Source: Rhodocyclaceae bacterium (GTDB taxonomy: Bacteria > Pseudomonadota > Gammaproteobacteria > Burkholderiales > Rhodocyclaceae). Taken from it: a stretch of DNA of 43,941 nt. This document shows, piece after piece, positions 1-18,990 of the stretch. The notes under the pieces are model-generated. The model had not been told where the DNA came from. It saw nothing but the letters and a program-made list of their open reading frames with translations, and made no database searches. Within the stretch, counting starts at the first letter, position 1; the number at the start of each line of letters is the position of its first letter. The stretch is from positions 1-43,941 of the forward strand of contig JAIEOJ010000259.1 of assembly GCA_019750575.1 (NCBI GenBank). Direction: 5' to 3'. The translations under genes were made by a program, and so were the position numbers.

Positions 1-213
1 ACGCTGGACATGCTGGACCGGACCAGCCGGCGCGGTTTCGCCTTCAACTGCCTGACCAGCTACTCTGACCCGGAGCGTATGCGCGGCTATCTTTACTATG
101 CTGACCCCTGCGCCTTGTTCGATCACTGCAAGCGCCGCTATTCGCGGCAGGTCGCATTGCTTCACGATTACGGGCTTTATGAGTTCACCATACTCGTCAG
201 GAAAGATATATGA
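1..213 (+). CDS. C-terminal fragment of a SAM-dependent methyltransferase-like protein (5' truncated by window edge)
   Basis: Frame open from base 1 (TLDMLDRTSRRGFAFNCLTSYSDPERMRGYLYYADPCALF...); overlaps the next ORF start by 4 bp (ATGA). Confidence 0.55.
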   Translation, partial: TLDMLDRTSRRGFAFNCLTSYSDPERMRGYLYYADPCALFDHCKRRYSRQVALLHDYGLYEFTILVRKDI

Positions 214-1226
214 CGAGGCTTCCACCGGCGGTAGGCCTCGACGATTTCGATGTGGCTGCACAAGCGGGTTTGCGCGAAGAATTGGCTGCCGTTTATCGCG
301 AGTTTCGCTCAATTCAGGCCAATAGCCAGAGCGGATTGGACGAGCCTGGCCAGATTGTCGCTCGTCAAGTTTGCCCTGGCTGTGGTGCCGCGACGCGGGA
401 TACGACCTTGCTGTTCAGCAAGAACAATATTCCCCATGTGCGTTGCAATCATTGCGATCTTGTCTATACGCTCGCAACACTGACGCCATCTGCCGATGCC
501 GCCCAGTATGATGGTAACGAGTTCATGCGTGCCTATGTCGAACTGAAGCGGCATCCTTTGTACGCCAAGCTCGAGATCGCTAAGGCGCGCTACCTTCTAC
601 AACGTGTACAAGCGCAGCGTGCAGGGGTGCGGACCGTTCTCGACATCGGTGCTAGTACCGGTGCCATGATGGCAGCTGCAGGTCTTCAGGGGCTGGATGG
701 CTACGGTATCGAACCTGATCGCGCCATGGCTGAACTGCTGGGGCGCCTGTATCCACAGCGCCTCATCAACGGTTATTTCCCTCAGGATTTATCACAGGAT
801 TGGCCGCTCTTCGACCTGATTACCTTGCTCGATGTCCTTGAGCACATGGTCGAGCCGGTGTGTTTTCTTGAGTCTATCAAGGCATCCTTGGGGCCGGAGG
901 GCGTGCTCTTGGTTCAGGTGCCGAATTTCAACAGCTTGCTCGTGCAAATGGACGGGCCAAAGAATTCAAATTTTTGCATCGGGCACTGGCAACACTTTAC
1001 CGCCGCGACGCTATCTGCGCTGCTGGCCAGAGCCGGGTTTTGCGCGCTAGAAATCGGCAATTGCATCAGCGAGCTCGACCGTATTCGGGACTATCCTGCA
1101 ACGCAGGTACTCACCACCACGGCGCGCCTCCTCGGTGAGGCAAAAACCGTGGAAACTCCTGCTCAGTTGTACGAATACGGTTTGGGCTACAAGCTGTATG
1201 GTTTGTTTGCCCTGACTTCCTCCTGA
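210..1226 (+). CDS. Class I SAM-dependent methyltransferase with N-terminal Cys-rich motif
   Basis: CPGCG...RCNHCDLVY zinc-ribbon-like motif, VLDIGASTGAMM SAM-binding motif, LLDVLEHMVEP post-I motif. Confidence 0.8.
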   Translation: MTRLPPAVGLDDFDVAAQAGLREELAAVYREFRSIQANSQSGLDEPGQIVARQVCPGCGAATRDTTLLFSKNNIPHVRCNHCDLVYTLATLTPSADAAQYDGNEFMRAYVELKRHPLYAKLEIAKARYLLQRVQAQRAGVRTVLDIGASTGAMMAAAGLQGLDGYGIEPDRAMAELLGRLYPQRLINGYFPQDLSQDWPLFDLITLLDVLEHMVEPVCFLESIKASLGPEGVLLVQVPNFNSLLVQMDGPKNSNFCIGHWQHFTAATLSALLARAGFCALEIGNCISELDRIRDYPATQVLTTTARLLGEAKTVETPAQLYEYGLGYKLYGLFALTSS

Positions 1227-1236
1227 TTCCTCTGCA

Positions 1237-2403
1237 TTGAGGTCGCCCATGTTCGACCCGCCTGACCTGGATATGATTCCTTTCGGCCGTCCCTTTATCG
1301 TCGGCAAAGAGCTGTATTACATGGCCAAGGCCGTCGAACTCGGCAGCCTGGCCGGTGATCAAGCTTTCACCAAGCTGTGCCACCGTTGGCTGGAGGAGCA
1401 TACCGGCAGCCGCCGCGCCTTGCTCACCCACTCCTGCACGGCGGCGCTCGAAATGGCCGCAATTCTGACCGAAGTCGGGCCTGGCGACGAAGTCATCATG
1501 CCGTCCTATACCTTTGTGTCGACGGCAAACGCCTTTGTGCTGCGCGGTGCGACGCCGGTCTTTGTGGATATTCGTCGCGACACCCTGAACCTCGACGAAA
1601 ATCTCGTGGCCGCAGCCATCAGCGACCGCACGCGTGCGATCGTACCGGTGCATTACGCCGGTGTCCCTTGCGAAATGGATGTGTTGGCCCAGTTGGCCGA
1701 AGATCGCAAACTGTGGCTGATCGAGGATGCCGCCCAGGCGCTGCAGTCGGAGTGGAAGGGCAGGGCGCTCGGCAGTATCGGTCACCTCGGTTGCCTGAGC
1801 TTCCACGAAACCAAGAACGTGATTGCCGGCGAAGGCGGGGCGCTGCTGGTGAACGACGAACGCCTGATCGAGCGCGCCGAGATCATTCGCGAGAAGGGTA
1901 CCAATCGCAGCCAGTTCTTCCGCGGCCAGACCGATAAATACACCTGGGTGGATATCGGCTCGTCCTACTTGCCGGGCGAGTTGATCGCCGCCTTCCTCTA
2001 TGCCCAGCTCGAACATGCCGACTTCATTACGGCGCAGCGCCGCGCCACGGTAAAGCGCTATCAGGCCCTGCTGCAGCCGATCGCTGCCACGGGACGCATC
2101 GAGCTGCCGGCGATTCCGTTAAGCGAGCATGGCAACGGCCACATGTTCTATTTCCTGGCGCAGGATCTGGAGCAGCGCTCGGACTTGCTGCAGCGCTTGC
2201 GTGCCGCCGGCGTCGGCGCCGTATTCCACTATGTGCCGCTGCATAGCTCGCCTGCCGGCAGACGCTACGGCCGCGCCGGCTCGCCGATGCCGGTGACCGA
2301 CTTTGTTGCCGACCGCCTGGTGCGGCTGCCGCTCTATCACGGCATGACCCAGGCCGAGCAAGACCGCGTGGTCGAGGTCGTCTTTGATTTCTACAAGCCC
2401 TGA
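1237..2403 (+). CDS. dTDP-4-amino-4,6-dideoxygalactose transaminase-like (WecE/RffA, DegT/DnrJ/EryC1 family)
   Basis: MIPFGRPFIVGKELYYMAKAVELGSLAGDQAFTKLCHRWLE...; PLP motif SFHETKNVIAGEGGAL. Confidence 0.88.
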   Translation: MRSPMFDPPDLDMIPFGRPFIVGKELYYMAKAVELGSLAGDQAFTKLCHRWLEEHTGSRRALLTHSCTAALEMAAILTEVGPGDEVIMPSYTFVSTANAFVLRGATPVFVDIRRDTLNLDENLVAAAISDRTRAIVPVHYAGVPCEMDVLAQLAEDRKLWLIEDAAQALQSEWKGRALGSIGHLGCLSFHETKNVIAGEGGALLVNDERLIERAEIIREKGTNRSQFFRGQTDKYTWVDIGSSYLPGELIAAFLYAQLEHADFITAQRRATVKRYQALLQPIAATGRIELPAIPLSEHGNGHMFYFLAQDLEQRSDLLQRLRAAGVGAVFHYVPLHSSPAGRRYGRAGSPMPVTDFVADRLVRLPLYHGMTQAEQDRVVEVVFDFYKP

Positions 2404-2419
2404 AGGGGCGTTCGCTGAC

Positions 2420-4726
2420 ATGACCCAACCGCCCAGCCTTTTTGCGCCGCTGAACCGTCCGTACTACATCTTCGCGCCCCATTATCAGCAGGGATCGGGC
2501 GGCGTGCGCGCCATGCATTACCTTTGCCATGCGCTCAATTTGCTTGGCGAAGAGGCTTACGTCACCAATCCGAATATCCATCTGGGATTGCGGACGCCTG
2601 TCCTGACCACGGCCATCGGCCAGATGCACGACGCGGCCGGACGCGAGCCCATCGTCGTGTATGCCGAGGTGGTGACCGCGAATCCCCTCCAGGCAAGAAG
2701 TGTCGTGCGTTATCTGCTGGCGGTGCCGGGCCTTCATACCGGCCAGCAGATTCAGCTGCAGCCGCGTGACCTGTTGTACACCTTCGGCCCCACCCTGGTG
2801 CCGCCGGGCTGGTCGGCGGATCCGTTGCGTATGCCGCTGGTGGATACCAAGATCTTCAACAGCGATGGCGTGAGGGACGACCAGCGCAAGGGCTCGGCGG
2901 TCTTCATCCACCGCCACCTGGACAAGGGCGGGCAACTCGATCCGGTCACCGCCGATTCGATCGAAATCTCCTACCGCGTACCCGAACGTTCAGCTGACGA
3001 GCTGGCGGAAATCTTCCGTCGCGTCGAATGTCTTTACCTGTACGAGTACTCCACCATCTGTTTCGAAGCCTTGCTGTGCGGCTGCCCGGTTGTTTTCATC
3101 ATGAACGACGTGTCGCTGCCGGAAACGACGCCCTGGCTCATGGGCGGCCACGGCATTGCGTGGGGGCTGGCACCGGAGGCGCTGGTCCACGCCAAGGCGA
3201 CTGTGCATGAGGTCAAGGCGTTTTATGCCGAAGAGCAGCGCGTATTCTGGCGCGATCTCGACGCTTTTGTCGCCAAGACCCAGGCGCAAGCCGCCGCGCT
3301 TGATACGCCCATGCCGGCGCCGGGACAGCCCGGCAGCGCATCCGTCATCAGCCATCGTGCAGTGAACTGGCCATCCAGCCAGCCGGCCAAAAAGGCGCCG
3401 GCAGCTGCACCGCGCAAGCGGCGCCTGGTGGTGTGCGGCATCGAGACGCCGAAGAACGCCTGCCCCATCATTCGCCTGATTGCCCCCTTCTCGTTTTATC
3501 CGGATGACTGGGAAGTCGTCTGGGGCATTGCGAACAGCGAGCTCAACTTCGCCACGGTGCGATCAGCCGACGTGATCCTGCTGCACCGCTTCATGCCCGG
3601 CGTCTGCTCTCCCGATGTGCTCAAGGCGATTTTTGATCTGGGCAAGCCGGTCATTTACGAAACGGACGATCTCCTCACCGAGGTTCCGGACGGTATTCCC
3701 AACGCCGAGTTCATGCGACGCGGCAAGGCGGGCATGGAGTATGCGATCCGTCATGCCAACGCGGTGGTTGTATCGACGCAGTTCATCGCCGACAAATACA
3801 AGGCGCTCAACCCGAATATCCACGTTCTGGTCAACTTTCTGGATTTCGATCGCTTCTACCGGCCGGTACCGATGCAGCCGCGCGCGAAAATCAGCATCGG
3901 TCTGGTCGGCACTTCGCTGATGCCATACAACTTTGCGCTCGTTGACGCGGCCTTGCGCAGCCTGTGCGAACGCTATGCCGGGCAAATCCGGCTGTGCTTC
4001 ATCGGGCATCAGGTGCCGGCTGGCTGGGAGGGACATCCCGCCGTCGAATATCACCCCGTACTGCATGAGTATCACGCCTACGCCGAGTGGTTGCTCGAGC
4101 AACAGCTCGATATCGCCTTGATCCCGCTCGTCGACGATGCCTTCAACAACAGCAAGAGCGTGATCAAGTGGATGGAGTATTCGGCTGCCGGTGTCGCCTC
4201 CGTATTCAGCGACGTGGCAACTTATCGCACCGTGGTCGATAGCGGCCGCAACGGCATGCTGGTCGAGGAGACGCCGGCTGCCTGGCAGGCGGCGATCGAA
4301 ACCCTGGTGGCAGATCCGGCCTTGCGTCGCCGCCTGGCGCGAACGGCTCAGGCCGAGGTGCGCAAGCACTTCGCCCTGCGCGAGAATGCCTGGCGCTATC
4401 ACCAGACCTATCTGCGGGCCATCGGCGAGACCGAGCAGGCGGCAGGTGTGCACCCGGCTGACCGGACGCAATCGGTGCCCGGAGTGCTGGTGCTCGATGC
4501 CGAGGGCAGCGCGGAGAAGATTCAGCGCAGCCTGGACGGCTTGTCGCGCGGGCCTTACGCCGGGGTCCCGGTGATCGTGCTGACGACGCTGCCCGGCCAG
4601 ATGCCGGAGTGGACCGACAGCCTGCGCTGCGTGCAGACGACCGCGGATGAGTACGTCGAGGCGGCAGAGCAGCTCTGCGCGCTGGCCGATTTCGACTGGG
4701 CTGTGATCATCGAGGCCGGTCAGTAG
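2420..4726 (+). CDS. Multidomain glycosyltransferase (N-terminal GT-like domain plus GT-B GT1/GT4-like domain plus short C-terminal extension)
   Basis: 780-aa ORF track entry begins upstream; ATG at 2420 is the likely start. Motifs: YLYEYSTICFEALLCGCPVVFI; VIKWMEYSAAGVASVFSDV; NGMLVEETPAAWQAAIETLVADP. Confidence 0.8.
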   Translation: MTQPPSLFAPLNRPYYIFAPHYQQGSGGVRAMHYLCHALNLLGEEAYVTNPNIHLGLRTPVLTTAIGQMHDAAGREPIVVYAEVVTANPLQARSVVRYLLAVPGLHTGQQIQLQPRDLLYTFGPTLVPPGWSADPLRMPLVDTKIFNSDGVRDDQRKGSAVFIHRHLDKGGQLDPVTADSIEISYRVPERSADELAEIFRRVECLYLYEYSTICFEALLCGCPVVFIMNDVSLPETTPWLMGGHGIAWGLAPEALVHAKATVHEVKAFYAEEQRVFWRDLDAFVAKTQAQAAALDTPMPAPGQPGSASVISHRAVNWPSSQPAKKAPAAAPRKRRLVVCGIETPKNACPIIRLIAPFSFYPDDWEVVWGIANSELNFATVRSADVILLHRFMPGVCSPDVLKAIFDLGKPVIYETDDLLTEVPDGIPNAEFMRRGKAGMEYAIRHANAVVVSTQFIADKYKALNPNIHVLVNFLDFDRFYRPVPMQPRAKISIGLVGTSLMPYNFALVDAALRSLCERYAGQIRLCFIGHQVPAGWEGHPAVEYHPVLHEYHAYAEWLLEQQLDIALIPLVDDAFNNSKSVIKWMEYSAAGVASVFSDVATYRTVVDSGRNGMLVEETPAAWQAAIETLVADPALRRRLARTAQAEVRKHFALRENAWRYHQTYLRAIGETEQAAGVHPADRTQSVPGVLVLDAEGSAEKIQRSLDGLSRGPYAGVPVIVLTTLPGQMPEWTDSLRCVQTTADEYVEAAEQLCALADFDWAVIIEAGQ

Positions 4727-4753
4727 CGAAACGCAGGCACGACAGGAACGGAT

Positions 4754-5575
4754 ATGGGCAAGGCGAACATCTATCAGATCTTTTATTCCGCGGAGACCCG
4801 CAACGGGCTCGATCGCGGCTTCATTCCGCTCGACAACACCGGGCAGCGTCCGGACTGGTACGAATACTGGCCGATGCGGACCTTTCTGCAGGGGCAGACC
4901 TTGAATGAGGAGGACTTCTACGCCTTCCTCTCACCCAAGTTCGGGCAGAAGACCGGTCTTGGCGCCCCACAGCTGCAGGCATTCCTTGGCAGCGTCGATC
5001 CGTCGGTGGATGTCATCACGCTGTCGCCTTTCTTCGATGCCGCCGCCCTGTTCGACAATGTTTTCAAGCAGGGCGCCAACGAACATCCGAATATCTGGCC
5101 GGTGTTCGTCGAGTGCGCCGCAATCGCAGCGCCCGGCGTCTCCCTCGAAACCTTGCTGATGGATTCGAGCGATAGCGTGTTCTGCAACTACTTTCTGGCC
5201 AAACCCCGCTTCTGGCGCCACTGGCTCGAATGCGCGGAACGGATCTTTGCGGTTGCGGAACGGAACGATACGGAGCTGGCCCGCATACTCAACGGGCCGA
5301 CGCGGCACAACAACGCCGATACGACCCCGGTCAAGGTGTTCGTGATCGAACGGCTGGTTTCCCTGCTGCTGGCGACCGAACCGCAATGGCGAGTAAGCAA
5401 TCTCAACAGTATGTCGCTGCCGTTCGCCTATCCGGGCGCTGACAGGGTGAAGCCCGGCTTGGCGATTCTGGATGCATTGAAAAGGGCGGCCAAGCAGACC
5501 GGCTACGCGGAGTATCGGCAGGTGTATGCCAGCATGCGCATGCAGGTCATCCAGCAACTAAACAATCCGGGCTGA
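4754..5575 (+). CDS. Hypothetical protein associated with glycosyltransferase cluster
   Basis: 273-aa ORF in same orientation, 27 bp after the GT; no family confidently recognised. Confidence 0.7.
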   Translation: MGKANIYQIFYSAETRNGLDRGFIPLDNTGQRPDWYEYWPMRTFLQGQTLNEEDFYAFLSPKFGQKTGLGAPQLQAFLGSVDPSVDVITLSPFFDAAALFDNVFKQGANEHPNIWPVFVECAAIAAPGVSLETLLMDSSDSVFCNYFLAKPRFWRHWLECAERIFAVAERNDTELARILNGPTRHNNADTTPVKVFVIERLVSLLLATEPQWRVSNLNSMSLPFAYPGADRVKPGLAILDALKRAAKQTGYAEYRQVYASMRMQVIQQLNNPG

Positions 5576-5586
5576 CTACCCCTCAA

Positions 5587-8500
5587 TCAGCGCTTCGCAG
5601 ACCACATACCCGATAGTGCGTTTTCGAAGTGACGCGCAAAACGCGGCGCGTCGAACATCGGCGAAGCCAGCGCTTGCTGGCGCAGCTGCTGGCGCAGCGT
5701 TGCCAGCATGTCCGGATCGGCGGCAAATTCGACCGCTTTGGTCACATAGTCGGCTTCGTCCACCGCGATCCATTCAGGCAGGCCGACGTTGCGCATGATG
5801 TTCTCGCCGGCGTGCGAGAGCATGCGGTTGCCGCGCAGCGTCAGCACCGGCACGCTCATCCACAGGGCTTCGACCGTGGTCGTGCCGCCCGGATACGGAA
5901 ACGGATCAAGCACGATGTCGAGGCGCTGATAGGCCCTGAGATAGTCATCACGCGGGGTCGGGCCCTCCAATAACAGTTGCTGGTCGGTGATGCCATACGC
6001 TGCAAAACGCTCGCGCAACCATGTGCATACGGCAGCGTCGGCAAGCTGCCGGGCCTTGAGCAGCAAACGGGCGTTCGGTACCTGTTGCAGAATGCGAGCC
6101 CACGTCGCCAGCACCGCATCGGTGAGCTTGCCGATATTGTTGAAGCAGCCGAAGGTGATGAAGCCGTTCTCCCGCGCCGGCAGATCGTTGATGGCGATAT
6201 CGGCGTCAGGCGGCGTGAAGCACAGATAGGTTTCCGGCAAGCGCCAGATCGTCTCGGTGAAATGGCCTTCCTCTCCCGCCGGGCAGACATTGGGATCGCC
6301 GATCAAATAATCCATCTGCTCCACGCCGGTGGTGGCGAAGTAGCCCAGCCAGGCCGCCTGTACCGGGGCCGGTTTGCAGGCGAAGAGCGGCAGGCGGTTG
6401 TCGCCGGTATGGCCTGCCAGGTCGAGGAGGATATGAATTCCGTCGGCATGGATCAAGCCGGCTGCGGCGACGTCGTCCAGCCCGTCGATGTTTTTCCAGC
6501 CGGCGCAATGTGCGCGCAGACGCTGACTCATCGCGTCGGTTTTGTGCTCGGGCCGGTTCGAATAGGCGATGACTTCAAAACGATGCGTGTCGAGTTGTTC
6601 AAGCAGACCGGCCAGAAAATAGCCGACCGGGTGATTGTAGAGATCGCCGGAGACGAGGCCGATCCGCAGGCGTGTCGGCTGCGGATCGCATGTCCACTGG
6701 CTGTAACGCTGCTGGGCAAACTTGCGGCTAAGCATCTTGCCGAAGTCCTGCGCCAGCGACAAGGCTTCCGGCGTATGCCTGGTATTGCCGTAATTGAGCA
6801 AGAACAGCAGGATGTTGTAGGCCTTGGCGTTATCGGGCTCCCGCTTGATGAGACGGCGCGCCAGGCTTTCCGCCTCTTCCAGCAGGCCGAGTTTGACCAG
6901 TGTCGAGCTCAGCGCGAGCATGGCGCCGGTGTCGGACGGCGTGAGGGCCAGCGCTTTGCGCAGGCTCTCCTCGGCGGCCCGCAGGCGGTTCTGTTCCAGC
7001 AGGACAATGCCCAGATTGGCATGGGCATTCGCCAGCGAGGCGTTGACGGCGACAGCCTGGCGATAGGCAGATACTGCGCCCTCCAGGTCGCCGCGGCTGC
7101 GGCAGATAAAGCCCAGATTGATGCACGCGTCGGTTTGCCGGGGATCTATTGCAATGGCGTGTCTGAGGCTGCTTTCGGCCTCGTGCGGGCGGCCGTTGCG
7201 GATCAGGAGATAACCGAGACTCGCATGGGCCGCGGCATCGTCGTGCGCCAGCGCTACCACGCGTTGCATCGACTGCAGAGCGGCATCGAGGCGTCCGCCT
7301 TGCTGTTGCGCCTGACCGAGCGCGCGCCAGGCGGCCGTAGTCTGCGGATATTTTTGCGTTATGGCCAGCGCGTGTTTTTCGAGCGCCGCCGCATTGCCTT
7401 GCTTGAGGAGTCGCTGCAACTGCGCCATCTCGGCGGCCGGGGCCTGTTTCTTCGCCGCGGTCGGCAGCGCCGCCGGCGGTTTCGGCGCATGCGCCTGCCA
7501 CATCTGCCAGAGAGCGGCGTCGAAACCCTGGGCGAAGCCCTGGGTGTCGAGCAGCGGCGAAGTCTTCAGCCGATCGCGCAGGCCGGACCGCAGTGCTCCC
7601 AGCGCCGCCAGGTCGCCGGCAAATGCAATGGCTTTGCGGATGTAATCGTCCTTGTCGGCGGCAATCCAGTTCGGCATCCCGGCATTGTGGGCGACGCTCT
7701 CGCCAAGGTGGGCAAGAAAACGGTTGCCGCGCAAGGTCAACACCGGTACGCCCATCCACAGCGTATCCACGCTGGTTGCGCCACCGGGGTAAGGAAAGGG
7801 GTCGAGGGCAATATCCACCTTGGCATATGCCTGCAGATATTCCTGGCGTGGCGACGGGCCTTCCAGCATCAGTCGGTCGCTGCCGATCCCGTGGAGCGCA
7901 AAGCGCGATGCAGTTTCGGCCTGCACAGCCGAGTCGCGCAACTGGGGTGCCTTCAGCAGCAGGCGCGCGTCGGGCAGCTGACGCAAAAGCTCGGCCCAGA
8001 GCGACACCACGGCGTCATTCATCTTGTTGAGATTGTTGAAGCAGCCGAAGGTCACGTAACCGTTCTGCAGCGCCGGCAAGGCGGAGACGGGCACGTCTGT
8101 TTCGGGGGGCGTGAAGCTGAGCCAGGTCTGCGGCAGACGCCATACGCTTTCGGTGAAGTGGGCTTCTTCTCCGGCCGGGCACAGCCATGGATCGCCGATC
8201 AGGTAATCCATCTCGGCCACACCCGTGGTTGCGAAGTAGCCGAGCCAGCTGGCTTGTACCGGAGCCGGCTTGAACGCGAACAGCGGCAGGCGGTTGTCCG
8301 TGGTGTGGCCGGAGAGGTCGAGCAGGACGTGGATCCCGTCGGCATGGATTAGCGCAGCCGCATCCTGATCCGAAAGTCGGTAGATCGACTTCCAGTCAGA
8401 GAAGTGCGGCCGGATACGCGTGGTCAGGGCGTCGCATTTCTGCTCCGACATATGTACATAAGCGACCAGCTCGATACTGTCGGTCGGAAGGTTGCTGACC

Positions 8501-9738
8501 AGACTCTCGACGAAGTAACCGACCGGATGGCTGTGCAGATCGGCCGATACGAGCCCGATCTTGAGCCGTACCGGATTCTTTTCACAACGCCATTCGCGAT
8601 AAAGCTGGCTACGGCGTCGGGCAACCAGGCGGCCGTATTGCTCGGCCAGATCGCGCGCCTCGCGGGCCTTGTCGATATGTGTGTAGTTGAGTACGAACAG
8701 CAGCAGATCGTAGGCCAGCGGACTGTCCGGATCGATTGCAATGGCCTTGCGTATGACGCTCTCAGCTTCGTCAAGATGGCCGAGCTTGACCAGTGCCGTG
8801 CTCAGATTTCGCAGCGCGAAGGCATTCCGAGGCTCGAGCTGAAGCGCTGTGCGAAAGCACGTTTCGGCTTCGCGAAACGCCTGCGCTGTCGTCAGCAGCA
8901 CACCCAGGTTGGAGTAGGGGACGGCCTGTTTCGGATCGAGCTCGATGGCACGTCGATAGCACGCTGCAGCCTCATCCAGCCGCTCCTGATCTTTGTACAC
9001 GTTACCCAGATTGGTGTGCGTGTCCGACACGTTCGGTTCGAGCGCAATCGCCTGCACGAATGCAGCCTCGGCTTCCTGAAGGCGGCGCAGACGCCACAGG
9101 ATCAGACCCAGGTCGGCGTGGGCCTGCGCCTCCCCTGGGCGAAGTTCGACCATTTTCAGGTTGGCGGGCAGGGCCTCTTCGAAGCGGTGGGTATGGTAGC
9201 GGGCGAGACTCAGCGCTTTCCATCCTTCCATGGCGTGCGGATATTTCTGCGTGAGTGCGACGGCAAGTTGTTCCATACGCACGTAGTCGCGCTTGGCGAA
9301 GGCCGCCGAGAGCGCCTGCAATTCGGCTGGCGTCGGCAAGGGGCCGGCGGGTGGTGCAGGCGCTGTTGTCGTGTGATTTTTTTCTTGGGACGTTACCGCA
9401 TGCGCGACGACGCCGTGACGCCGACTGAGTTGCATGACTTCCTGCGCAGCGGCAGTTTCGCCGGCTGCGTTGAGCGCCTCGATATAGCTTTGCCAGAACT
9501 GAGCCTTGCCGGGGTTGGCGGCCACTGCGGCCTGGAAGAAAGGCAGCGAGGCTGCGGGTTGCTGCAACTGGACGGCGATGACGCCGAGGTTGTGATGCGC
9601 GTCGGCATTCTGGGGGGCGATCTGCAGAATGGCCCGATACAATTCTTCCGCTTCCTTCAGGCGGCCCGCCTGATGATGCGCGACCGCAGTGCTGAAGGCT
9701 TCCTGGACGAGTGCGGCGTTGCTGGAGGTGTCGCTCAT
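5587..9738 (-). CDS. TPR-GT41-TPR-GT41 protein: duplicated O-linked GlcNAc transferase (OGT/SPINDLY) family
   Basis: 1383 aa; two copies of the LRIGLVSxDLxxHPVGYFxxxL...HADGIHxLLDLxGHTxDNRLPLFAxKPAPVQAxWLGYFATTGVxxMDYLIGDPxxCPAGEExHFTExxWRLP block and ...LDPFPYPGGxTxVxxLWMxVPVLTLRGNR, each preceded by TPR repeats. Confidence 0.92.
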   Translation of the reverse strand: MSDTSSNAALVQEAFSTAVAHHQAGRLKEAEELYRAILQIAPQNADAHHNLGVIAVQLQQPAASLPFFQAAVAANPGKAQFWQSYIEALNAAGETAAAQEVMQLSRRHGVVAHAVTSQEKNHTTTAPAPPAGPLPTPAELQALSAAFAKRDYVRMEQLAVALTQKYPHAMEGWKALSLARYHTHRFEEALPANLKMVELRPGEAQAHADLGLILWRLRRLQEAEAAFVQAIALEPNVSDTHTNLGNVYKDQERLDEAAACYRRAIELDPKQAVPYSNLGVLLTTAQAFREAETCFRTALQLEPRNAFALRNLSTALVKLGHLDEAESVIRKAIAIDPDSPLAYDLLLFVLNYTHIDKAREARDLAEQYGRLVARRRSQLYREWRCEKNPVRLKIGLVSADLHSHPVGYFVESLVSNLPTDSIELVAYVHMSEQKCDALTTRIRPHFSDWKSIYRLSDQDAAALIHADGIHVLLDLSGHTTDNRLPLFAFKPAPVQASWLGYFATTGVAEMDYLIGDPWLCPAGEEAHFTESVWRLPQTWLSFTPPETDVPVSALPALQNGYVTFGCFNNLNKMNDAVVSLWAELLRQLPDARLLLKAPQLRDSAVQAETASRFALHGIGSDRLMLEGPSPRQEYLQAYAKVDIALDPFPYPGGATSVDTLWMGVPVLTLRGNRFLAHLGESVAHNAGMPNWIAADKDDYIRKAIAFAGDLAALGALRSGLRDRLKTSPLLDTQGFAQGFDAALWQMWQAHAPKPPAALPTAAKKQAPAAEMAQLQRLLKQGNAAALEKHALAITQKYPQTTAAWRALGQAQQQGGRLDAALQSMQRVVALAHDDAAAHASLGYLLIRNGRPHEAESSLRHAIAIDPRQTDACINLGFICRSRGDLEGAVSAYRQAVAVNASLANAHANLGIVLLEQNRLRAAEESLRKALALTPSDTGAMLALSSTLVKLGLLEEAESLARRLIKREPDNAKAYNILLFLLNYGNTRHTPEALSLAQDFGKMLSRKFAQQRYSQWTCDPQPTRLRIGLVSGDLYNHPVGYFLAGLLEQLDTHRFEVIAYSNRPEHKTDAMSQRLRAHCAGWKNIDGLDDVAAAGLIHADGIHILLDLAGHTGDNRLPLFACKPAPVQAAWLGYFATTGVEQMDYLIGDPNVCPAGEEGHFTETIWRLPETYLCFTPPDADIAINDLPARENGFITFGCFNNIGKLTDAVLATWARILQQVPNARLLLKARQLADAAVCTWLRERFAAYGITDQQLLLEGPTPRDDYLRAYQRLDIVLDPFPYPGGTTTVEALWMSVPVLTLRGNRMLSHAGENIMRNVGLPEWIAVDEADYVTKAVEFAADPDMLATLRQQLRQQALASPMFDAPRFARHFENALSGMWSAKR

Positions 9739-9781
9739 GGAGGGCGGTGGCCCGGGTGGGGACCGGCTGCAATCAAAGGAT

Positions 9782-9806
9782 GGAAGTCCCTATTATCCGG
9801 ACTTCC
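9782..9806. promoter_or_regulatory. 8-bp dyad GGAAGTCC-N9-GGACTTCC flanking a GATAAT-like -10 (minus strand) upstream of the OGT gene
   Basis: Read directly: tGGAAGTCCctattatccGGACTTCCt; minus strand reads GGAAGTCCGGATAATAGGGACTTCC. Confidence 0.4.
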
Positions 9807-9820
9807 TTGCCGTCGGCACC

Positions 9821-9855
9821 AATAAAAAGGCCCGCACAAGGCGGGCCTTTTTATT
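9821..9855 (-). terminator. Rho-independent terminator (bidirectional-looking) downstream of HU gene
   Basis: AATAAAAAGGCCCGCacaaGGCGGGCCTTTTTATT. Confidence 0.85.
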
Positions 9856-9869
9856 GTTCTGGAGAAGTA

Positions 9870-10157
9870 TTACTTCTTCTTCTTGCCAGCAACAGCGGTC
9901 TTGAAACCGGCACCGGCGGAAAACTTCGGCACGGTGGTTGCCGGGATCTTGATCGACTCGCCGGTCTTCGGGTTCTTGCCGGTGCGTGCAGCACGCTTGG
10001 CCGACTTGAAGGTACCGAAACCCACCAGGGTAACCGTGTCGCCCTTCGACACAGCCTTGACAACAGCAGCGATGATGCCGTCCAGCGCCTTGCCGGCGGC
10101 GGCCTTGCTAATGTCGGCTTCCTTGGCGGCGATTTCGATCAGTTCAGCTTTGTTCAT
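9870..10157 (-). CDS. hupB: HU family DNA-binding protein
   Basis: MNKAELIEIAAKEADISKAAAGKALDGIIAAVVKAVSKGDTVTLVGFGTF...GKNPKTGE. Confidence 0.95.
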   Translation of the reverse strand: MNKAELIEIAAKEADISKAAAGKALDGIIAAVVKAVSKGDTVTLVGFGTFKSAKRAARTGKNPKTGESIKIPATTVPKFSAGAGFKTAVAGKKKK

Positions 10158-10332
10158 CTTCCCTTCCTTCCGTTTGTCGAGAGAAGGCCAAATGGCCTGA
10201 GGCGTATTCTAGCCACAAGTGCAAAGGAAAGTGCAAGGTTTTTTTGTCGGGGGCCCTTGTGAGGCCTTGCGCTACAATGCTCCCGCAACATCTGTCGTAT
10301 TTTTTCTGACACTTCCCCTGGAGTTTTTTCTC

Positions 10333-11232: not shown

Positions 11233-12026
11233 AGCGCCTCGCATTCATGCTGATGTTGTGTGCAGGCGCTGCCTGTGCGCAGGAGGGTGTGAATGTGGGC
11301 GAGGCTTCCTCGCTGCGCACCATGGTGCCGGCCGAGCAGATGGAGCAGCAGGCCGCCGCCAGCTACAGGCAGCTGCTCAAGCAGGCTGCGGCCAAGGACG
11401 CGCTGGCGCCCGACAGCCACCCTGAACTGAAGCGTTTACGCGCCATCGCCAATCGCCTGTTGCCGCATGCCGTGCGTTTCAATCCGCGCGCGGCGCAGTG
11501 GCAATGGGAAGTGAATCTGATCGGTGCCAGACAGATCAATGCCTTCTGCATGCCGGGCGGCAAGATCGCGTTCTACACCGGCATCCTGAATACGCTCAAG
11601 CTGACCGACGATGAAGTGGCCATGATCATGGGTCACGAGATGGCGCATGCGCTGCGCGAACATGCGCGCGAGCAGGCTGCGAAGAACACGCTGACCGGCC
11701 TCGCGGCAAACGTGCTCGGCATGGTGTTTTCCGGCAGCAACTATAGCGATGTCGCCAATATCGCCATCAATGCCGGTCACGGCCTGGCAGCGCGGGCCTT
11801 TTCTCGCAGTGACGAGCGCGAGGCGGATCTGGTCGGCATGGAGCTGGCGGCGCGCGGCGGTTTTGATCCGCAGGCCGGCATCACGCTCTGGGAAAAGATG
11901 GGCAATACGAGCAAGGGCGCACCGCCCGAGTTCCTGTCCACTCACCCGGCCAATGCCAGCCGCATCGAGGATATCCGCCGTCACCTGCCCGACGTGATGC
12001 CGCTGTATTTGCGGGCGAAACCCTAG
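11229..12026 (+). CDS. M48 family metallopeptidase, predicted exported
   Basis: N-terminal signal-like MKRLAFMLMLCAGAACA; GHEMAHALREH zinc motif; ATGA overlap with rdgC. Confidence 0.9.
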   Translation: MKRLAFMLMLCAGAACAQEGVNVGEASSLRTMVPAEQMEQQAAASYRQLLKQAAAKDALAPDSHPELKRLRAIANRLLPHAVRFNPRAAQWQWEVNLIGARQINAFCMPGGKIAFYTGILNTLKLTDDEVAMIMGHEMAHALREHAREQAAKNTLTGLAANVLGMVFSGSNYSDVANIAINAGHGLAARAFSRSDEREADLVGMELAARGGFDPQAGITLWEKMGNTSKGAPPEFLSTHPANASRIEDIRRHLPDVMPLYLRAKP

Positions 12027-12051
12027 TCAGCCCTGCGCCGAAAGGCGAGGC

Positions 12052-12879
12052 TTACGCCAGGCCGCTTTCGCGCGCCTTGCGCTCGCGTTCCATGCGCACG
12101 ATGTAGCGCTGGATCAGGTTCTGTGACGTGATCGGCATGTCCACGAACTGGCAGCCGGCACGCAGGCTGGGCTGACCGTTGCGCAGCGTCGTTTCATAAA
12201 TGTTCACGATGCGCAGGGTGGTGTTGATGACGCCGATCTGCGGCAGGTCCAGGGTGCAGTCCGGCCATTCCTGCTCGGTGCTGAACGGCACCTGGTCGAT
12301 GTGCAGCGACAGGCCGCCGATGCTGATGTCGATGACATCATGCGTGTAGATCTGCACGCTGCCATCGCTCATGACGACAGGGATGTCGCACAGCAGCGGC
12401 CGCGTGATGGGCGTGCGCAGGCGGAAGTACTCGCGGCGCTGCAGTCGCAGCAGGGTTTCCGGCAGGGCGGCAGCGAATACGCTGCGGCCCTCGTACGGCG
12501 TTTCACGCACACCCGTCAGGATGAACTGCAGCTTGACCATGTCGTGGCGGGTGATGCAGAAAATCTTGCCAGCCTCGAGCGCGCGCCGGTTCATTTCCTC
12601 GCTGCTGCCACGGTCGAGCAGGAGTTCGCGGTCGTTCACGGCGAGCAGGGTGGTCAGCAGGAAATCCTTGCCGCTGTTGAAGTAGAGGGTGACGAGATCG
12701 CCCTGGGCGACGACCTGGCGCAGCACGGCAAGAATTTCGCGCGGGCTGTGCAGCAGGTATTCGCTGTACTGGTCGAGGTGCAGGACCTCCGCGCTGGCCT
12801 CGTCTTCGGCCGCTGGCGGCAGCGGGGTTTCCTGCGGCGTATCGTCGGTTTCCATGAGGCGTGTTGTCGGGAGGGGCAT
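12052..12879 (-). CDS. ycgR: Flagellar brake protein, YcgR-like PilZ domain
   Basis: RREYFRLRTPITRPLLCDIPV...DISIGGLSLHI (PilZ motifs); next to flagellar genes; start may be 12855. Confidence 0.85.
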   Translation of the reverse strand: MPLPTTRLMETDDTPQETPLPPAAEDEASAEVLHLDQYSEYLLHSPREILAVLRQVVAQGDLVTLYFNSGKDFLLTTLLAVNDRELLLDRGSSEEMNRRALEAGKIFCITRHDMVKLQFILTGVRETPYEGRSVFAAALPETLLRLQRREYFRLRTPITRPLLCDIPVVMSDGSVQIYTHDVIDISIGGLSLHIDQVPFSTEQEWPDCTLDLPQIGVINTTLRIVNIYETTLRNGQPSLRAGCQFVDMPITSQNLIQRYIVRMERERKARESGLA

Positions 12880-12918
12880 GACAGGGCGGCAAAAATGTCG
12901 GGGATAAGCAGTTAAAGC

Positions 12919-13239
12919 TTATTCCATGCCAGAAGGCATGATGCCTTTTTCCTCGACACGATAAAGCCAGGCCAGCAGTTCGGCCACGGCCACATACAGC
13001 TGGGGTGGAATGTGATCGTCCAGATCGACCTGCAGCAGCAGGGTGACCAATTCCGGCGATTCATGCACATAGACGCCATGGGCCTTGGCGCGATGGATGA
13101 TTTCCTCGGCGATCAGGCCCTTGCCCCGCGCCACCACCTTGGGTGCGGCATCGCCCGGTGCATAGGCGAGGGCGACCGCCAGGGCGCGTTCGTTCTCGCG
13201 CTCCTGTCCGTCTTCGCGCTGGACTTCATTCTGACTCAT
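12919..13239 (-). CDS. FlhB-like protein (FlhB/HrpN/YscU/SpaS C-terminal domain homologue)
   Basis: ALAYAPGDAAPKVVARGKGLIAEEIIHRAKAHGVYVHESPELVTLLLQVDLDDHIPPQLYVAVAELLAWLY. Confidence 0.88.
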   Translation of the reverse strand: MSQNEVQREDGQERENERALAVALAYAPGDAAPKVVARGKGLIAEEIIHRAKAHGVYVHESPELVTLLLQVDLDDHIPPQLYVAVAELLAWLYRVEEKGIMPSGME

Positions 13240-14308
13240 GGCGTACCTGGGCGGCCTGCAGGGTGATGCCTGCCGCGGCCAGGGCCTCCGTGAGTGCCGG
13301 CAATTCGTCGCGCATGTCGGCGGCGGAGGCGCCGACCGGGGTGCTCAGGTTGAGTTGCAGGCTGTTGCCGGCAATGCGCAGCCTGGCCTCGACCGAGCCG
13401 AGGCGGGGCGTGGTGAGGCGCAGGGTCGTCAGCCAGGGCTGCGGCTCATCGCTGCCTTGTGCGGCCTGCTGGCGGTCTTCCTCCACCTCCCATTCGATGC
13501 GCTGGCCGGGCCAGGCCTCGCCATGCAGGATCAGGCGCTGACTGGCCGCCGCTTCAAGCTGCTGATGCACGAGCGGGCGCAATTCCGCGGGCAGGGTCTG
13601 GCTCTCGTTGCGTGCCAGGGCGGTTTCTGCGGGCCGGACGCCTTCTTCGGCGAGCGATTCTGCCGTGCGTGCGGCGGCGGCCGTATCCATGGCCGCTGCG
13701 GAGCGCGCCCTGGCGGCAAGTTGTGCGGCATTGGGCTCGGATTGCTTCCCCTGCGGCTCCTGCAGCAGGGTTTCCAGCGGCCGCTTGCCGGCAATCCATT
13801 GCGCCTGGTGTGCTTCGTAGAACAGGCCGCTGCCTTCCACCGCCTTCTGCAGCGCGGCAGCGAGCGGGCCGGCCGTTGTCGGCGGTGCATTGAGCAGGGG
13901 CTGGCCGCGATTCAGCGGTGCGGTGTGCGAGCCCTGTTCTTCACTCAGCAACTGACCGATGAGTTGGGCGGCAGGCGACAGCGTGGTGTGCTTGTAGGCG
14001 CCGGCATCAAGCGTGCCGTCGGGTACCGTGCGGGCAATGATGGCCTTGGGGCTGCGGTCGATGACGACCAGTTCCAGCACGTCGCCGGCATTGGCGCCCT
14101 CGGGCAGGGCCAGGGTCAGGCTCTTGCCGGCAACCAGGGCACGGTAGGTGTTTTCGGGCAGGACTTCCTGGATGCGCGCCGAGAATACCTGGCCCGGTTG
14201 CAGGTCAGGCAGGTCGGCGGGTACGCCGGCAACCCGTGCGACCGGTTGCAGCGGCCCGTCGTCGGGCAGGCGCATGCGTATGCCGACATCAGTCGGAATC
14301 AGGGCCAC
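13226..14308 (-). CDS. fliK: Flagellar hook-length control protein FliK
   Basis: Position between fliT and the FlhB-like gene; Ala/Gln-rich middle; C-terminal LGSVEARLRIAGNSLQLNLSTPVGASAADMRDELPALTEALAAAGI. Confidence 0.78.
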   Translation of the reverse strand: MALIPTDVGIRMRLPDDGPLQPVARVAGVPADLPDLQPGQVFSARIQEVLPENTYRALVAGKSLTLALPEGANAGDVLELVVIDRSPKAIIARTVPDGTLDAGAYKHTTLSPAAQLIGQLLSEEQGSHTAPLNRGQPLLNAPPTTAGPLAAALQKAVEGSGLFYEAHQAQWIAGKRPLETLLQEPQGKQSEPNAAQLAARARSAAAMDTAAAARTAESLAEEGVRPAETALARNESQTLPAELRPLVHQQLEAAASQRLILHGEAWPGQRIEWEVEEDRQQAAQGSDEPQPWLTTLRLTTPRLGSVEARLRIAGNSLQLNLSTPVGASAADMRDELPALTEALAAAGITLQAAQVRHESE

Positions 14309-14366
14309 GCCGGCCTCCGTTGCGGGAAAGGATGCGGGGTCAAGGTGGCGCTCCGGCCACCATCAG

Positions 14367-14714
14367 TCAGGCGGTGTGCGCGCCGTAGGTCTGGTCGACC
14401 TGGCGCTTCTTGCGGGCGCCGCCGAGAAACTGGCGTACCTGTTCCATCCAGGGCTCGGTATGGCGGCGGATTTCGGCGTCGTCGGCGAGTATGCGCTGGA
14501 TCAGCGCCGCCTTGCGTTCGCGCTCCCCCATGCCCAGCCTGCCGTTGTCGTCCTCTCCGGCGAGGCGCAGACGCAACTCGCTCACCGAGCGTTCCAGCTC
14601 GATCAGGCTGTCCCAGTCGTTGCGACGCGCGGCCTCGACCATGCGCGCCGACAGGCTGGTCATTTCTTCGTAGAGTTCGATCTGGTTCTGCATTGCAAGC
14701 ATGGTAGTCCTCAT
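14367..14714 (-). CDS. fliT: Flagellar protein FliT-like export chaperone
   Basis: 115 aa helical protein (IELYEEMTSLSARMVEAARRNDWDSLIELERSV), overlaps fliS end by 4 bp. Confidence 0.78.
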   Translation of the reverse strand: MRTTMLAMQNQIELYEEMTSLSARMVEAARRNDWDSLIELERSVSELRLRLAGEDDNGRLGMGERERKAALIQRILADDAEIRRHTEPWMEQVRQFLGGARKKRQVDQTYGAHTA

Positions 14715-15133
14715 GCAGCAGCACGGTTTGCGGAAACTACAGCGGGATCAGCCGCTATTTCTTCCCAGGCAGAGCGCAATTCGCCAAGCAGACGGGTAAC
14801 TTCCTCGATTGCCGCCGGATCGTTGTGCAGATTGGCGTGCAGCAGGCGGATCGTCATGTAATCGTAGAGCGCATGCAGGCGTTCGGCGAGTTCGCCGCCG
14901 GCCTCCAGGTCGAGGCTGACGCGCAGGCCATTGGTGATGATTTCGATGGCCTTGGAGATGTCCTGGCCCTTGGCGGGGATATTCTTTTCCGCCATATGCC
15001 GCGTGGCCGATCCCAGGGCCATGATGGCACCGTCGAAAAGCATGAGGATCAGCTTGTGCGGACTGGCCGCAGTGACACCTGTTTCGACACCGACCTGGGC
15101 GTAAGCGGAAGCGGGATTGTTCGGGGCAAACAT
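14711..15133 (-). CDS. fliS: Flagellar export chaperone FliS
   Basis: YAQVGVETGVTAASPHKLILMLFDGAI. Confidence 0.95.
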   Translation of the reverse strand: MFAPNNPASAYAQVGVETGVTAASPHKLILMLFDGAIMALGSATRHMAEKNIPAKGQDISKAIEIITNGLRVSLDLEAGGELAERLHALYDYMTIRLLHANLHNDPAAIEEVTRLLGELRSAWEEIAADPAVVSANRAAA

Positions 15134-15150
15134 GATGATTCCTCGCGAGA

Positions 15151-16512
15151 TTATTTCTTGCTGGTGCCGGGCAGGCTGGAGAGTTGCTGTTCCAGGAAGC
15201 TGCTGGTGGAGCTCATGCTGGTGATCAGGGCATCCAGCGCCGAGTATTGCTTGCGATAACGCGCCTCGATGGTGACCAGTCGGTCGTTGATGGCGTCGCG
15301 CCGGTTATCCAAGGATGCAATGGAGCCTGTCAGTCCGTCGATGCGGCTGGCGAGGATGCCGCTGGTGCCCGTCGCCTGCGTCAGCCAGTCGTTGAACTGG
15401 ATGGCGATGCCCTTGTTGCCACTGGTGGTCTGAGTGAACAGGCTGGCAACATCCTTGTCCGGATCATTCAGCGCTATGGACAGCTTGCTGGTGTCGAGCT
15501 TCAGGGTGCCATCTCTTTGCAGGCTGACACCGACTTGCGAGAGGCTGGATAGGCCGCCCGTGACACCCGACACTCGGGCGTTCACCAGGCTGCCCAGCTT
15601 GCCCTGGATTGAGCGCAGTGTGGCGTCACCGGTCAGGATGGAGGCGTCCTCGTTGGCAGCATCGTAGGCGCTGAGAGCGGAGTTTTGCGCTACTACGGCA
15701 TTGTAGGCCGTGACAAATGCGGTCACCGCATTCACCGCCGCGCTCGGGTTCTTGGCGACGGTGATCGTTGAGCTGCCTTCCTTGGCCAGCGTCAGGGTCA
15801 GCCCCTGTACCACATCGCTGATGTTGTTGGAAGGGCGGGTGATGCTGAGGCCGTTCACGGTAAATGCGGCATCCTTGGCCGCCTGTACCAGTTGCAGGTT
15901 GCCGGAATCGAGGTCACTGAGCGGGTTGGTACCGCCGCTGCCGCTGTCGGTTGCTGTCACGGTAATTTCGCCCGCCAAGCCCATGGTCTTGGAGGTTAGG
16001 ACCAGACGCTGGTTGGTGCCATCATTGATGATGGTGGCGTTGACGCCGGCGCCCGAATTGTTGATGGCATTGCGCACCTGCGCCAGCGAGTTGTTGTTGG
16101 TGGTGATCTCGACATCTACGGCAGTGCCGTTGCCGACCTTGATCGACAGGGTGCCGGTATTGAAGGTGGCGCTGGTTGCGGTATAGGCGCCATTCGAGCG
16201 CAGGGTATTGGCGGTGGCGATCTCGTCGACAACGATGTTGTAGGTCCCGGGCGCTGCTTCGGTGGTAGCGGAGCCGGAAACCACATTGAGGTCGGTGCTG
16301 GTAATGCCCAGCGCCTTGAAGGTGTTGGCTTGCGTCAGCGTCTGTACCGCCGATTGCAGGGAGGCAAGGGCACTCTTTACCGTGCCGTAGGCGGAAATTT
16401 TTGCCTGATAGCTGGCTTCCTTCGTGTCGAGCACCTTGAGGGGCTGCTTTTCCAGCTCCATCAACTGCGAGACGATACTGTTTACATCGAGGCTGGAAGC
16501 GGCAATAGCCAT
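15151..16512 (-). CDS. fliD: Flagellar filament capping protein FliD
   Basis: LDVNSIVSQLMELEKQPL...; DxLTLTLAKEGSSTITVAKN; C-terminal coiled coil. Confidence 0.95.
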   Translation of the reverse strand: MAIAASSLDVNSIVSQLMELEKQPLKVLDTKEASYQAKISAYGTVKSALASLQSAVQTLTQANTFKALGITSTDLNVVSGSATTEAAPGTYNIVVDEIATANTLRSNGAYTATSATFNTGTLSIKVGNGTAVDVEITTNNNSLAQVRNAINNSGAGVNATIINDGTNQRLVLTSKTMGLAGEITVTATDSGSGGTNPLSDLDSGNLQLVQAAKDAAFTVNGLSITRPSNNISDVVQGLTLTLAKEGSSTITVAKNPSAAVNAVTAFVTAYNAVVAQNSALSAYDAANEDASILTGDATLRSIQGKLGSLVNARVSGVTGGLSSLSQVGVSLQRDGTLKLDTSKLSIALNDPDKDVASLFTQTTSGNKGIAIQFNDWLTQATGTSGILASRIDGLTGSIASLDNRRDAINDRLVTIEARYRKQYSALDALITSMSSTSSFLEQQLSSLPGTSKK

Positions 16513-16706
16513 GATTTTTCCTTGAACTGCAGGGTGTTAAGTCATTTACGGCGCTTTTCCCATTTTCTGTAGGGCAAAGCGAAAAAGCAAGCCTTGATTG
16601 GCTCGTTCCGAATATAAGCAAGAAGCAGGCGCGCTCGACTTTCGGCCATAAAAAACCTGATTGGGCATGAAGTTAGGAGGGTTTTATCCTCGCTGAAAAT
16701 ACATGA

Positions 16707-16818
16707 CCGTTCGGGCTGAGCCTGTCGAAGCCGCAATGGGGGTCGTGCTCTGCTGCCATAGAAAACAAATCGCCGAGGCTTGGCTCATGCGCGGCTTCGA
16801 CAGGCTCAGCCCGAACGG
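16707..16818. repeat. REP-like inverted pair (28-bp arms) between flaG and fliD
   Basis: CCGTTCGGGCTGAGCCTGTCGAAGCCGC (16707-16734) and exact reverse complement GCGGCTTCGACAGGCTCAGCCCGAACGG (16791-16818). Confidence 0.9.
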
Positions 16819-16857
16819 CTTACTTGATACTGTTGGCTGAACCTCGTCCTGATCAGA

Positions 16858-16887
16858 ATAAAAAAAGCCCGCGCAGGGCGCGGGCTT
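16858..16887 (-). terminator. Rho-independent terminator downstream of flaG
   Basis: minus strand AAGCCCGCGCccTGCGCGGGCTTTTTTTATT. Confidence 0.85.
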
Positions 16888-16910
16888 AGGGATCGCTCGT
16901 GTTGCTCGGT

Positions 16911-17273
16911 TCAGGCTTGCTGTTTGAGTAGCAGGCCTTGCATCTTGTCCAGTGACCGGGCGATGGCCAGGGCTTCCTCGGAAGGCAGCTGGCGAATCAG
17001 TTCACCGGTGCTGGCATCAGTGACACGGACAACGGTTTTTGCGGTTGTTTCGTCGATCGAAAACTGCAGTTGTGGCGGCTCGGTCACGTTGATCATCTTT
17101 TCCATGTCGCGAACCGCTTCTTCCAGCGCTTTCCGGTCAGGCGCAGCAACAGGTGCAGTCTGGACAGCTGCCTTGGCCGTGGCGGCCGGGGCGGCGGTCT
17201 TGACTGCGGCAGCACTATTGCCTTGCACAACAACTGCTTGTGTGGCGACTGCGCTCTGCGATTGAATCTCCAT
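16911..17273 (-). CDS. flaG: Flagellar protein FlaG
   Basis: LQFSIDETTAKTVVRVTDASTGELIRQLPSEEALAIARSLD; ORF track start 17294, MEIQSQS start at 17273 preferred. Confidence 0.93.
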   Translation of the reverse strand: MEIQSQSAVATQAVVVQGNSAAAVKTAAPAATAKAAVQTAPVAAPDRKALEEAVRDMEKMINVTEPPQLQFSIDETTAKTVVRVTDASTGELIRQLPSEEALAIARSLDKMQGLLLKQQA

Positions 17274-17296
17274 GATTCGGCTCCTGAGGGTCATCA

Positions 17297-17322
17297 GGGA
17301 GAGGCGGTGTTCAGCCTCTCCC
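17297..17322 (-). terminator. Stable hairpin between fliC and flaG (no clear U-tract)
   Basis: GGGAGAGGC-ggtgttca-GCCTCTCCC. Confidence 0.45.
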
Positions 17323-17337
17323 TATGGCTGCGCTAGT

Positions 17338-18990
17338 TTAGCCTTGCAGCAGGGTCAGGACGCTGTTCGGCATTGCGTTGGCCTGGGCCAGCATCGCCAC
17401 ACCCGCCTGTTGCAGGATCTGCGAGCGGGTCAGGTTTGCCGTTTCAGCCGCGAAGTCGGTATCCAGGATACGCGAGCGGGAGGCCGAGAGGTTTTCCGAC
17501 GTCGTTTGCAGGTTGGCGATGGTGTTCTCGAAGCGGGTCTGGGTTGCACCGTAGCGGGCGCGTTGTCCGCTCAGGGCACTCAGGGCCGAATCGACGATCG
17601 ACAGGGTCCGCAGCGAGGCATCGTAGCTGGAGACATCCAGTGCCGCGACCTTTTGCAGTTGGCCACCGTAGGTGCCGGCGCCGGCCTTGAACACGTCCGC
17701 AACCGTCGTGGTGACCGAGAATGACTTGTCGGAGTCGAGAATGACGCGGCCGGTGATACGGTTGCCGCCGTCCCACTTGGCGTCGGCGTTACCGGCAGCC
17801 AGGGTCACGCCCAGCGCGGATGCGGTGGTGGTGTCACCATCTAGCACGGCGATATCGGCGACGCTGACGCTGCCTACCGAGGCGGCGCTGTCGTTGGCAA
17901 TACGCAGGTCGCGACCGGATTCGCTGGTCAGCTTGACGGCCCAGTCGCCGTTTTCGGTTTGCACAGCTTCAGCGGTAAAGCCGGTCTTGCCCGATTGATC
18001 ATTGAAGGCCTGGACTGCAGCGTTCAGCTGGTCAGCCGAATTCACGGCGGCACCAGCAGTGTCGGTACCACCAACCTTGAACGAGATGGTGGTGAAATCG
18101 GTCGGGGTGGTGCTGGCGGTTTCAGTGGACAGCTGGAACGTATAGGTCTTGTTTTGCTTCAGTTCTGCGCCGTCCAGACCGCCGAGGACAACCTGAGTGA
18201 TGGCCGAAGCGCTCACGCCGCTGTTGGTGCGGTTGATCGCGGCGGCGACGTCGGCAGCGCTGGAGCCAGAGCTGTACAGGACATCATAGCTGCCGTTAGC
18301 CGAGGTGATCTTGAATTGGCCGCTGGCGGTTGCGCCGGCAACAACAGAGGCGTCGCTGCCGCTGGCCTTGGCCAGCCAGGCGTCGCCGAGGCCCGTGGCA
18401 CCCGCAGTGTTGGTGCTACCAACGGTCATGTCACCCACACCGCCGGACTTGTAGGCGGCGATGCCGCCGATACGGTAGTTGCCGTAGGCGTTGGTCTGGT
18501 AGTTGCCGGAGTTGACCAGAATGGTCTGGTTGGCATTGGCACCGACCTGGAAGGTGGCGGTGGTGAACGAGCCATCGAGCAGGTTCTGGCCGTTGAACTG
18601 GGTCGTGGTGGAAATGCGCTGCAGTTCCTGGGTCAGCTGCTGAACTTCGGCGTTCAGTGCGGAACGGTCACCGGCGCTGTTGGAGGCGTTGGCGGACTGG
18701 ACAGCCAGTTCGCGGATACGCTGCAGAATGTCGGTCGAGGTGGCCAGTGCGCCTTCAGCGGTCTGGGCCAGCGAGATACCGTCGTTGGCGTTACGACTTG
18801 CTTGGCTAAGGCCGCGGATTTGCGAGGTGAAGCGCGAGGAGATGGCGAGGCCGGCGGCGTCGTCCTTGGCGCTGTTGATGCGCAGGCCGGTCGACAGACG
18901 CTGAATGGCGGTCTGCATCGAGTTCTGCGTACCGTTGAGGTTACGTTGCGCGTTCAGCGAGGCAACGTTGGTATTAATTACTTGAGGCAT
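17338..18990 (-). CDS. fliC: Flagellin
   Basis: [50 protein letters not shown]...; C-term [28 protein letters not shown]. Confidence 0.97.

Follow-up and report, generated by a model that had tools for sequence, protein, structure and literature searches.

A two-headed TPR-GT41 glycosyltransferase gene beside a flagellar gene cluster in a Rhodocyclaceae bacterium

Background

Glycosyltransferases of family GT41 have been studied as enzymes with one head per chain (human OGT, SPINDLY, FlmG). We know of no placement in a flagellar locus for the Thermobaculum terrenum OGT or for XcOGT of Xanthomonas. SPINDLY (SPY), a plant protein O-fucosyltransferase of family GT41 (PDB 7y4i, 8dtf-8dti), consists of a TPR superhelix and a GT-B head, and its single-headed chains dimerise. 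FlmG of Caulobacter crescentus, a cytoplasmic flagellin pseudaminyltransferase of 596 aa, has a single TPR domain and a single head and attaches pseudaminic acid to flagellins; efficient glycosylation depends on the TPR domain, to which the flagellins bind (PMC7591256).

The gene described here was found in a stretch of 43,941 nucleotides from a Rhodocyclaceae bacterium (the window). Its product shares the modular TPR plus glycosyltransferase layout of FlmG, but is 1383 aa long and carries two heads on one chain, where SPINDLY brings two heads together by dimerisation. Each of its two units is built like SPINDLY, and the T. terrenum (5djs) and Xanthomonas (2vsn) enzymes have the same fold and subfamily features but are single-headed. 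Like a FlmG-type enzyme, it is encoded next to a flagellin gene, and this linkage is conserved in a second genome of the genus (G001; the genome of the window is G000).

Results and discussion

Domain layout

The minus strand of the window, a strand that the initial annotation had left unspecified, contains between positions 5587 and 9738 one unbroken open reading frame for 1383 aa, in which two TPR-GT41 modules follow each other in tandem. The parts of the gene, with the evidence for each in parentheses, are as follows.

5587..9738, minus strand: whole gene, two-headed TPR-GT41 protein, 1383 aa (ORF, translation, Pfam, syntenic ortholog)
9409..9738, minus strand: N-terminal TPR cap, residues 1-110, single copy (phmmer with the segment; helical hairpins in the model)
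9319..9408, minus strand: Pro/Ala/Thr-rich linker, residues 111-140 (pLDDT below 50 at 116-125)
8581..9318, minus strand: TPR array of unit 1, residues 141-386 (Pfam TPR; model)
7489..8580, minus strand: GT41 catalytic module 1, residues 387-750, with H404, K572 and A654 (Pfam, alignment, model)
7414..7488, minus strand: linker joining units 1 and 2, residues 751-775 (self-comparison of the halves)
6703..7413, minus strand: TPR array of unit 2, residues 776-1012 (Pfam TPR; model)
5590..6702, minus strand: GT41 catalytic module 2, residues 1013-1383, with H1036, K1204 and T1286 (Pfam, alignment, model)

Membership of the protein in GT41 (the OGT/SPINDLY family) is clear. The Pfam model PF13844 (Glyco_transf_41) matched it with E 1.5e-99 and 334 bits against a cut-off of 25 bits, in four stretches that correspond to two modules, as the model splits each catalytic domain at its middle insert. 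These stretches alternate with two TPR arrays, so that a TPR array directly precedes each catalytic domain. When the halves were aligned with each other, 50% identity was obtained over 624 aa (E = 0), which is far beyond chance. The duplicated unit, TPR plus GT41, thus spans about 620 aa and leaves out the cap. In the first linker, residues 116-125 are probably flexible, judging from the model.

AF2 models were made separately for unit 1 with the cap (pLDDT 93.3) and for unit 2 (pLDDT 94.6), and were compared with the PDB by Foldseek. Both halves were modelled as GT-B folds of the OGT/SPY type; SPINDLY was the best structural match, to which the unit 2 model aligned with a TM score of 0.89 and an rmsd of 3.1 Å, and T. 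terrenum OGT was the best PDB sequence match for head 1. The initial annotation had read the protein as two complete TPR-GT41 modules, with catalytic blocks at roughly residues 370-720 and 1030-1380, and had proposed that each half be modelled. Pfam, the self-alignment and these confident SPINDLY/OGT folds agree with that reading, the blocks lie close to the modules delimited here, and the DLxGHT and PYPGG motifs that it had noted are found in both modules.

Many other GT41 proteins, single-headed as well as multi-headed, were found to share the N-terminal cap (residues 1-110); several of them are encoded beside flagellin genes, and the cap may serve as a common docking domain. A gene on the plus strand (791-aa ORF, 5977-8352) was considered and rejected; it overlaps the conserved minus-strand gene and was taken as a shadow ORF.

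Age of the duplication

The assembly is a draft of 325 contigs, and misassembly joining two genes was an explanation that the initial annotation had left standing. It is excluded by two observations. The halves share 50% identity in protein, and even the DNA pieces that match best reach only about 77%, which points to an old duplication and not to an assembly error. In addition, the independent genome G001 contains a full-length ortholog (1413 aa, 59% identity over residues 8-1381) with the same neighbours, in the conserved order RdgC - M48 - YcgR - FlhB-related - FliK - FliS - FliD - FlaG - flagellin. The chance that the two-headed form is an assembly or duplication artefact is therefore close to nil.

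In trees built by a quick method, with SH-aLRT values as the only support, each head of the window protein paired with its counterpart in the G001 ortholog (SH-aLRT 99 and 97-98), and the four heads together formed one clade (93-97). Because the heads pair head by head, the duplication is older than the split of these two genomes. In G002, the third genome sampled from this genus, all GT41 genes are single-headed and of other subclades. Single-headed relatives with cap, TPR array and GT41 domain appear, from their sequences, to represent the ancestral form; L093, for example, has 739 aa and matches residues 10-755. The course of events would then have started from an ancestral single-headed enzyme of this type, which still occurs beside flagellin in relatives, and the TPR-GT41 unit would have been duplicated internally before the two sampled species split.

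Catalytic residues and differences between the heads

The equivalents of SPY H495 (H404 in head 1, H1036 in head 2) and of SPY K665 (K572 and K1204), the latter being essential in SPINDLY (PMC9715652), are invariant in both 38-row alignments. Catalytic His, Lys and the donor-site Tyr (SPY Y744) are common to SPINDLY and both heads, and the equivalent of SPY T749 is also kept in head 1; SPY S496 is replaced by Pro. At the donor-phosphate position SPY T748-T749, head 2 has TT and head 1 has AT, A654 and T1286 occupying the position of SPY T748 (human OGT T921). Since the G001 ortholog has TT in both heads, threonine was replaced recently and in this lineage only. In SPINDLY the T748A mutation strongly lowers activity, so head 1 may be slower.

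Between the orthologs, identity is 67.9% for head 1 and 69.6% for head 2, and NG86 dN/dS is approximately 0.20 and 0.22, respectively (rough values, synonymous sites being near saturation). Both heads are under equal purifying selection. The TPR arrays change faster, with 49.6% and 42.4% identity. Apart from the substitution in head 1, the motif comparison and the dN/dS values lend no support to a dead first or second copy. The initial annotation had judged neither module to be obviously dead, and this stands with respect to the retained His and Lys and the equal selection, with a reservation for the alanine in head 1.

The two heads are 59% identical to each other. At 25 of the 369 aligned catalytic positions they are fixed differently in both genomes, some of these positions lying near catalytic residues: H402/Y1034, two before the His; 570-573/1202-1205 around the Lys (570/571/573); and W518/N1150. 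At nine such positions it is head 2, and at eight it is head 1, that has the residue usual in single-headed relatives. As far as sequence comparison goes, the differences permit a different specificity, without showing it.

Taking into account these data, two alternatives to a pair of equivalent working heads can be weighed. That head 1 is weakened and acts mainly as scaffold or regulator, leaving catalysis to head 2, is suggested by the loss of the SPY T748/human OGT T921 threonine; among the other modules compared, Ala occurs at this position only in an evidently dead GT41 copy (L084, at 10189), which also tells us that GT41 pseudoenzymes occur in the family. We regard this as unlikely, as head 1 retains its catalytic His and Lys together with the equivalents of SPY Y744 and T749, is conserved to the same degree as head 2, and has its recent, lineage-confined Ala where the ortholog has Thr. 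Somewhat better placed, though still rather unlikely, is the idea that the heads have different jobs, using different donor sugars, serving different sets of acceptor sites, or catalyzing successive glycan steps in which head 1 starts and head 2 extends. It is consistent with the fixed differences, some beside catalytic residues, and with the stronger divergence of the TPR arrays (37.6% identity between units); relatives in which GT41 is fused to a sulfotransferase, a TylF methyltransferase, or a methyltransferase plus a group-1 glycosyltransferase, and two relatives (L078 and L089) whose heads stem from different GT41 subclades, point in the same direction. On the other hand, most active-site positions are the same in the two heads, which are still 59% identical, and their differences are spread evenly (nine versus eight), with no sign that a single head has changed its role.

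The L084 copy itself (from 10189 onwards, genome G132) is a single-headed GT41 just after a two-headed gene; its His, Lys and Thr-Thr are changed to G, A and A-R, and by these residues it is an apparent pseudoenzyme.

Genomic neighbourhood

The gene lies between sugar-modification genes and a flagellar cluster. Assignments are by Pfam and NCBIfam unless stated otherwise.

210..5575, plus strand: sugar-modification genes overall
210-1226, plus strand: methyltransferase
1237-2403, plus strand: WecE-type dTDP-4-amino-4,6-dideoxygalactose transaminase (WecE models far above cut-offs)
2384-4726, plus strand: group-1 glycosyltransferase
4754-5575, plus strand: 273-aa protein with no Pfam/NCBIfam match, convergent with the two-headed gene, the two ends lying 11 bases apart
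12052..18990, minus strand: flagellar cluster overall, same order in G001
12052-12879, minus strand: YcgR
12919-13239, minus strand: FlhB-related
13226-14308, minus strand: FliK
14711-15133, minus strand: FliS
15151-16512, minus strand: FliD
16911-17294, minus strand: FlaG
17338-18990, minus strand: flagellin, presumed substrate

Because the RdgC and M48 genes intervene on the opposite strand, the two-headed gene and the flagellar cluster do not form one operon. A flagellar cluster adjoins the gene in both G000 and G001, and also adjoins several other single- and multi-headed relatives. On the sugar-gene side, the counterpart in G001 consists of AMP-binding, GFO/IDH, FkbM methyltransferase and DegT genes; the sugar genes thus appear to vary while the two-headed enzyme stays, as would be expected for flagellar glycosylation islands.

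The WecE-type transaminase (dTDP-Fuc4N pathway) beside a glycosyltransferase is a candidate donor pathway. On another contig (L182, C317, approximately 7638-11040), a nonulosonic-acid-like locus codes for a WbuX amidotransferase, a NeuB-type synthase and an unmatched 384-aa protein; the synthase scored below both the PseI and the NeuB equivalog cut-offs, and the locus is unlinked to the two-headed gene. Neither WecE nor the NeuB-type synthase, nor the donor-site motif of the heads, singled out a donor sugar. The genome contains a second GT41 gene, single-headed and of another subclade, on contig C206. A search of the genome (95% complete) for a competing flagellin glycosyltransferase, with PF01973 (MptE-like), gave no match, a weak result as bacterial Maf was unconfirmed among the control genomes; with PF13844, a match was found in the Caulobacter control genome.

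Proposed function

The reading that we prefer, with a probability of about 0.55, is that the gene codes for a cytoplasmic flagellin O-glycosyltransferase acting before export, with two working heads on one chain. The following account of its activity, its substrate, the donor sugar and how the heads share the work is inferred. By analogy with the TPR domain of FlmG, the TPR arrays would bind flagellin in the cytoplasm, and each GT-B head would bind a nucleotide sugar and transfer the sugar to Ser/Thr of flagellin. Two tethered heads would raise the local activity on several acceptor sites of one flagellin, or, alternatively, each TPR/head pair might serve its own set of sites; most simply, the two heads raise throughput on multiple sites. 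The nearby group-1 glycosyltransferase could also take part.

Flagellin, the target that the initial annotation had in mind, is a sensible one, as the gene sits beside the flagellin cluster. It counts against this role that most multi-headed relatives lack a flagellin or FliD gene in the fetched stretches, and WecE-type genes, such as the neighbouring one, are likewise characteristic of pathways for O-antigen and enterobacterial common antigen. Both facts would fit an enzyme that acts on another protein or on a surface polymer, its proximity to flagellin being incidental. We consider this rather unlikely, given that two diverged species share the flagellar linkage and that it is seen again in further genera, that TPR-bearing GT41 enzymes act on proteins, and that FlmG provides a precedent.

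Multi-headed GT41 proteins in other genomes

The initial annotation had treated the two-headed architecture as an oddity. This picture was corrected by a search, with the protein as query, of 399 genomes of the family, 369 of the class and 399 of the phylum, and by counting modules in the fetched loci: after removal of duplicate loci, at least 26 verified GT41 proteins with two to four catalytic modules (20 double, five triple, one quadruple) were found in at least 24 related genomes. This is a lower bound, as loci were fetched only for long open frames among the matches listed. In examples such as L039, L078, L081, L083, L086, L040 and L165, two to four TPR-GT41 units make up open frames of 1258-3213 aa. 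Although proteins of this architecture are thus many, neither a description of the multi-headed form nor a function for such proteins was found in the open-access literature (most subscription journals being outside this coverage); GT41 membership as such is known, and the variant is apparently undescribed before.

Seven of the 24 genomes (G000, G001, G412, G196, G104, G493 and G623) have flagellin, FlaG, FliD or FliS genes within the fetched stretch, several contigs being too short to judge. The multi-headed proteins mostly go back to separate duplications; some are encoded away from flagellar genes, and several next to flagellin or FliD. In the tree, L040 (three heads), L086 (three heads), L091, L080, L083 and the pair from the window and G001 form separate exclusive clades; in L078 and L089 the heads of one chain belong to different subclades. 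The sequences suggest at least six separate origins of the multi-headed form, some of which could be mimicked by gene conversion within proteins. A single origin was rejected, as the tree (quick method, SH-aLRT only) would then need many gains or losses.

A more speculative view, to which we give little credence at present, is that multi-headed TPR-GT41 chains are glycosylation assembly lines, in which successive TPRs hold the substrate and successive heads act on it; two to four GT41s and, in relatives, sulfotransferase or methyltransferase domains would attach or modify sugars at separate sites or in separate steps. A form that has evolved repeatedly offers a natural system for studying how TPR enzymes choose their sites, and lets one ask whether tethered heads give processive glycosylation and how flagellin glycoforms diversify.

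Several other chains found in the census combine GT41 with further domains: L042:3642-9599 (GT41 and sulfotransferase), L080:5144-10942 (two GT41s and a TylF methyltransferase) and L041:5170-10215 (GT41, methyltransferase and group-1 glycosyltransferase). The most heads per chain, four GT41 modules in a 2550-aa open frame, were found in L165:1312-8961 (G929). At L078 (G412), two two-headed genes with near-identical catalytic modules (5049-8942 and 8681-13618) lie side by side, adjoining fliC-flaG-fliD; judged by this near-identity, the pair is a recent gene duplication.
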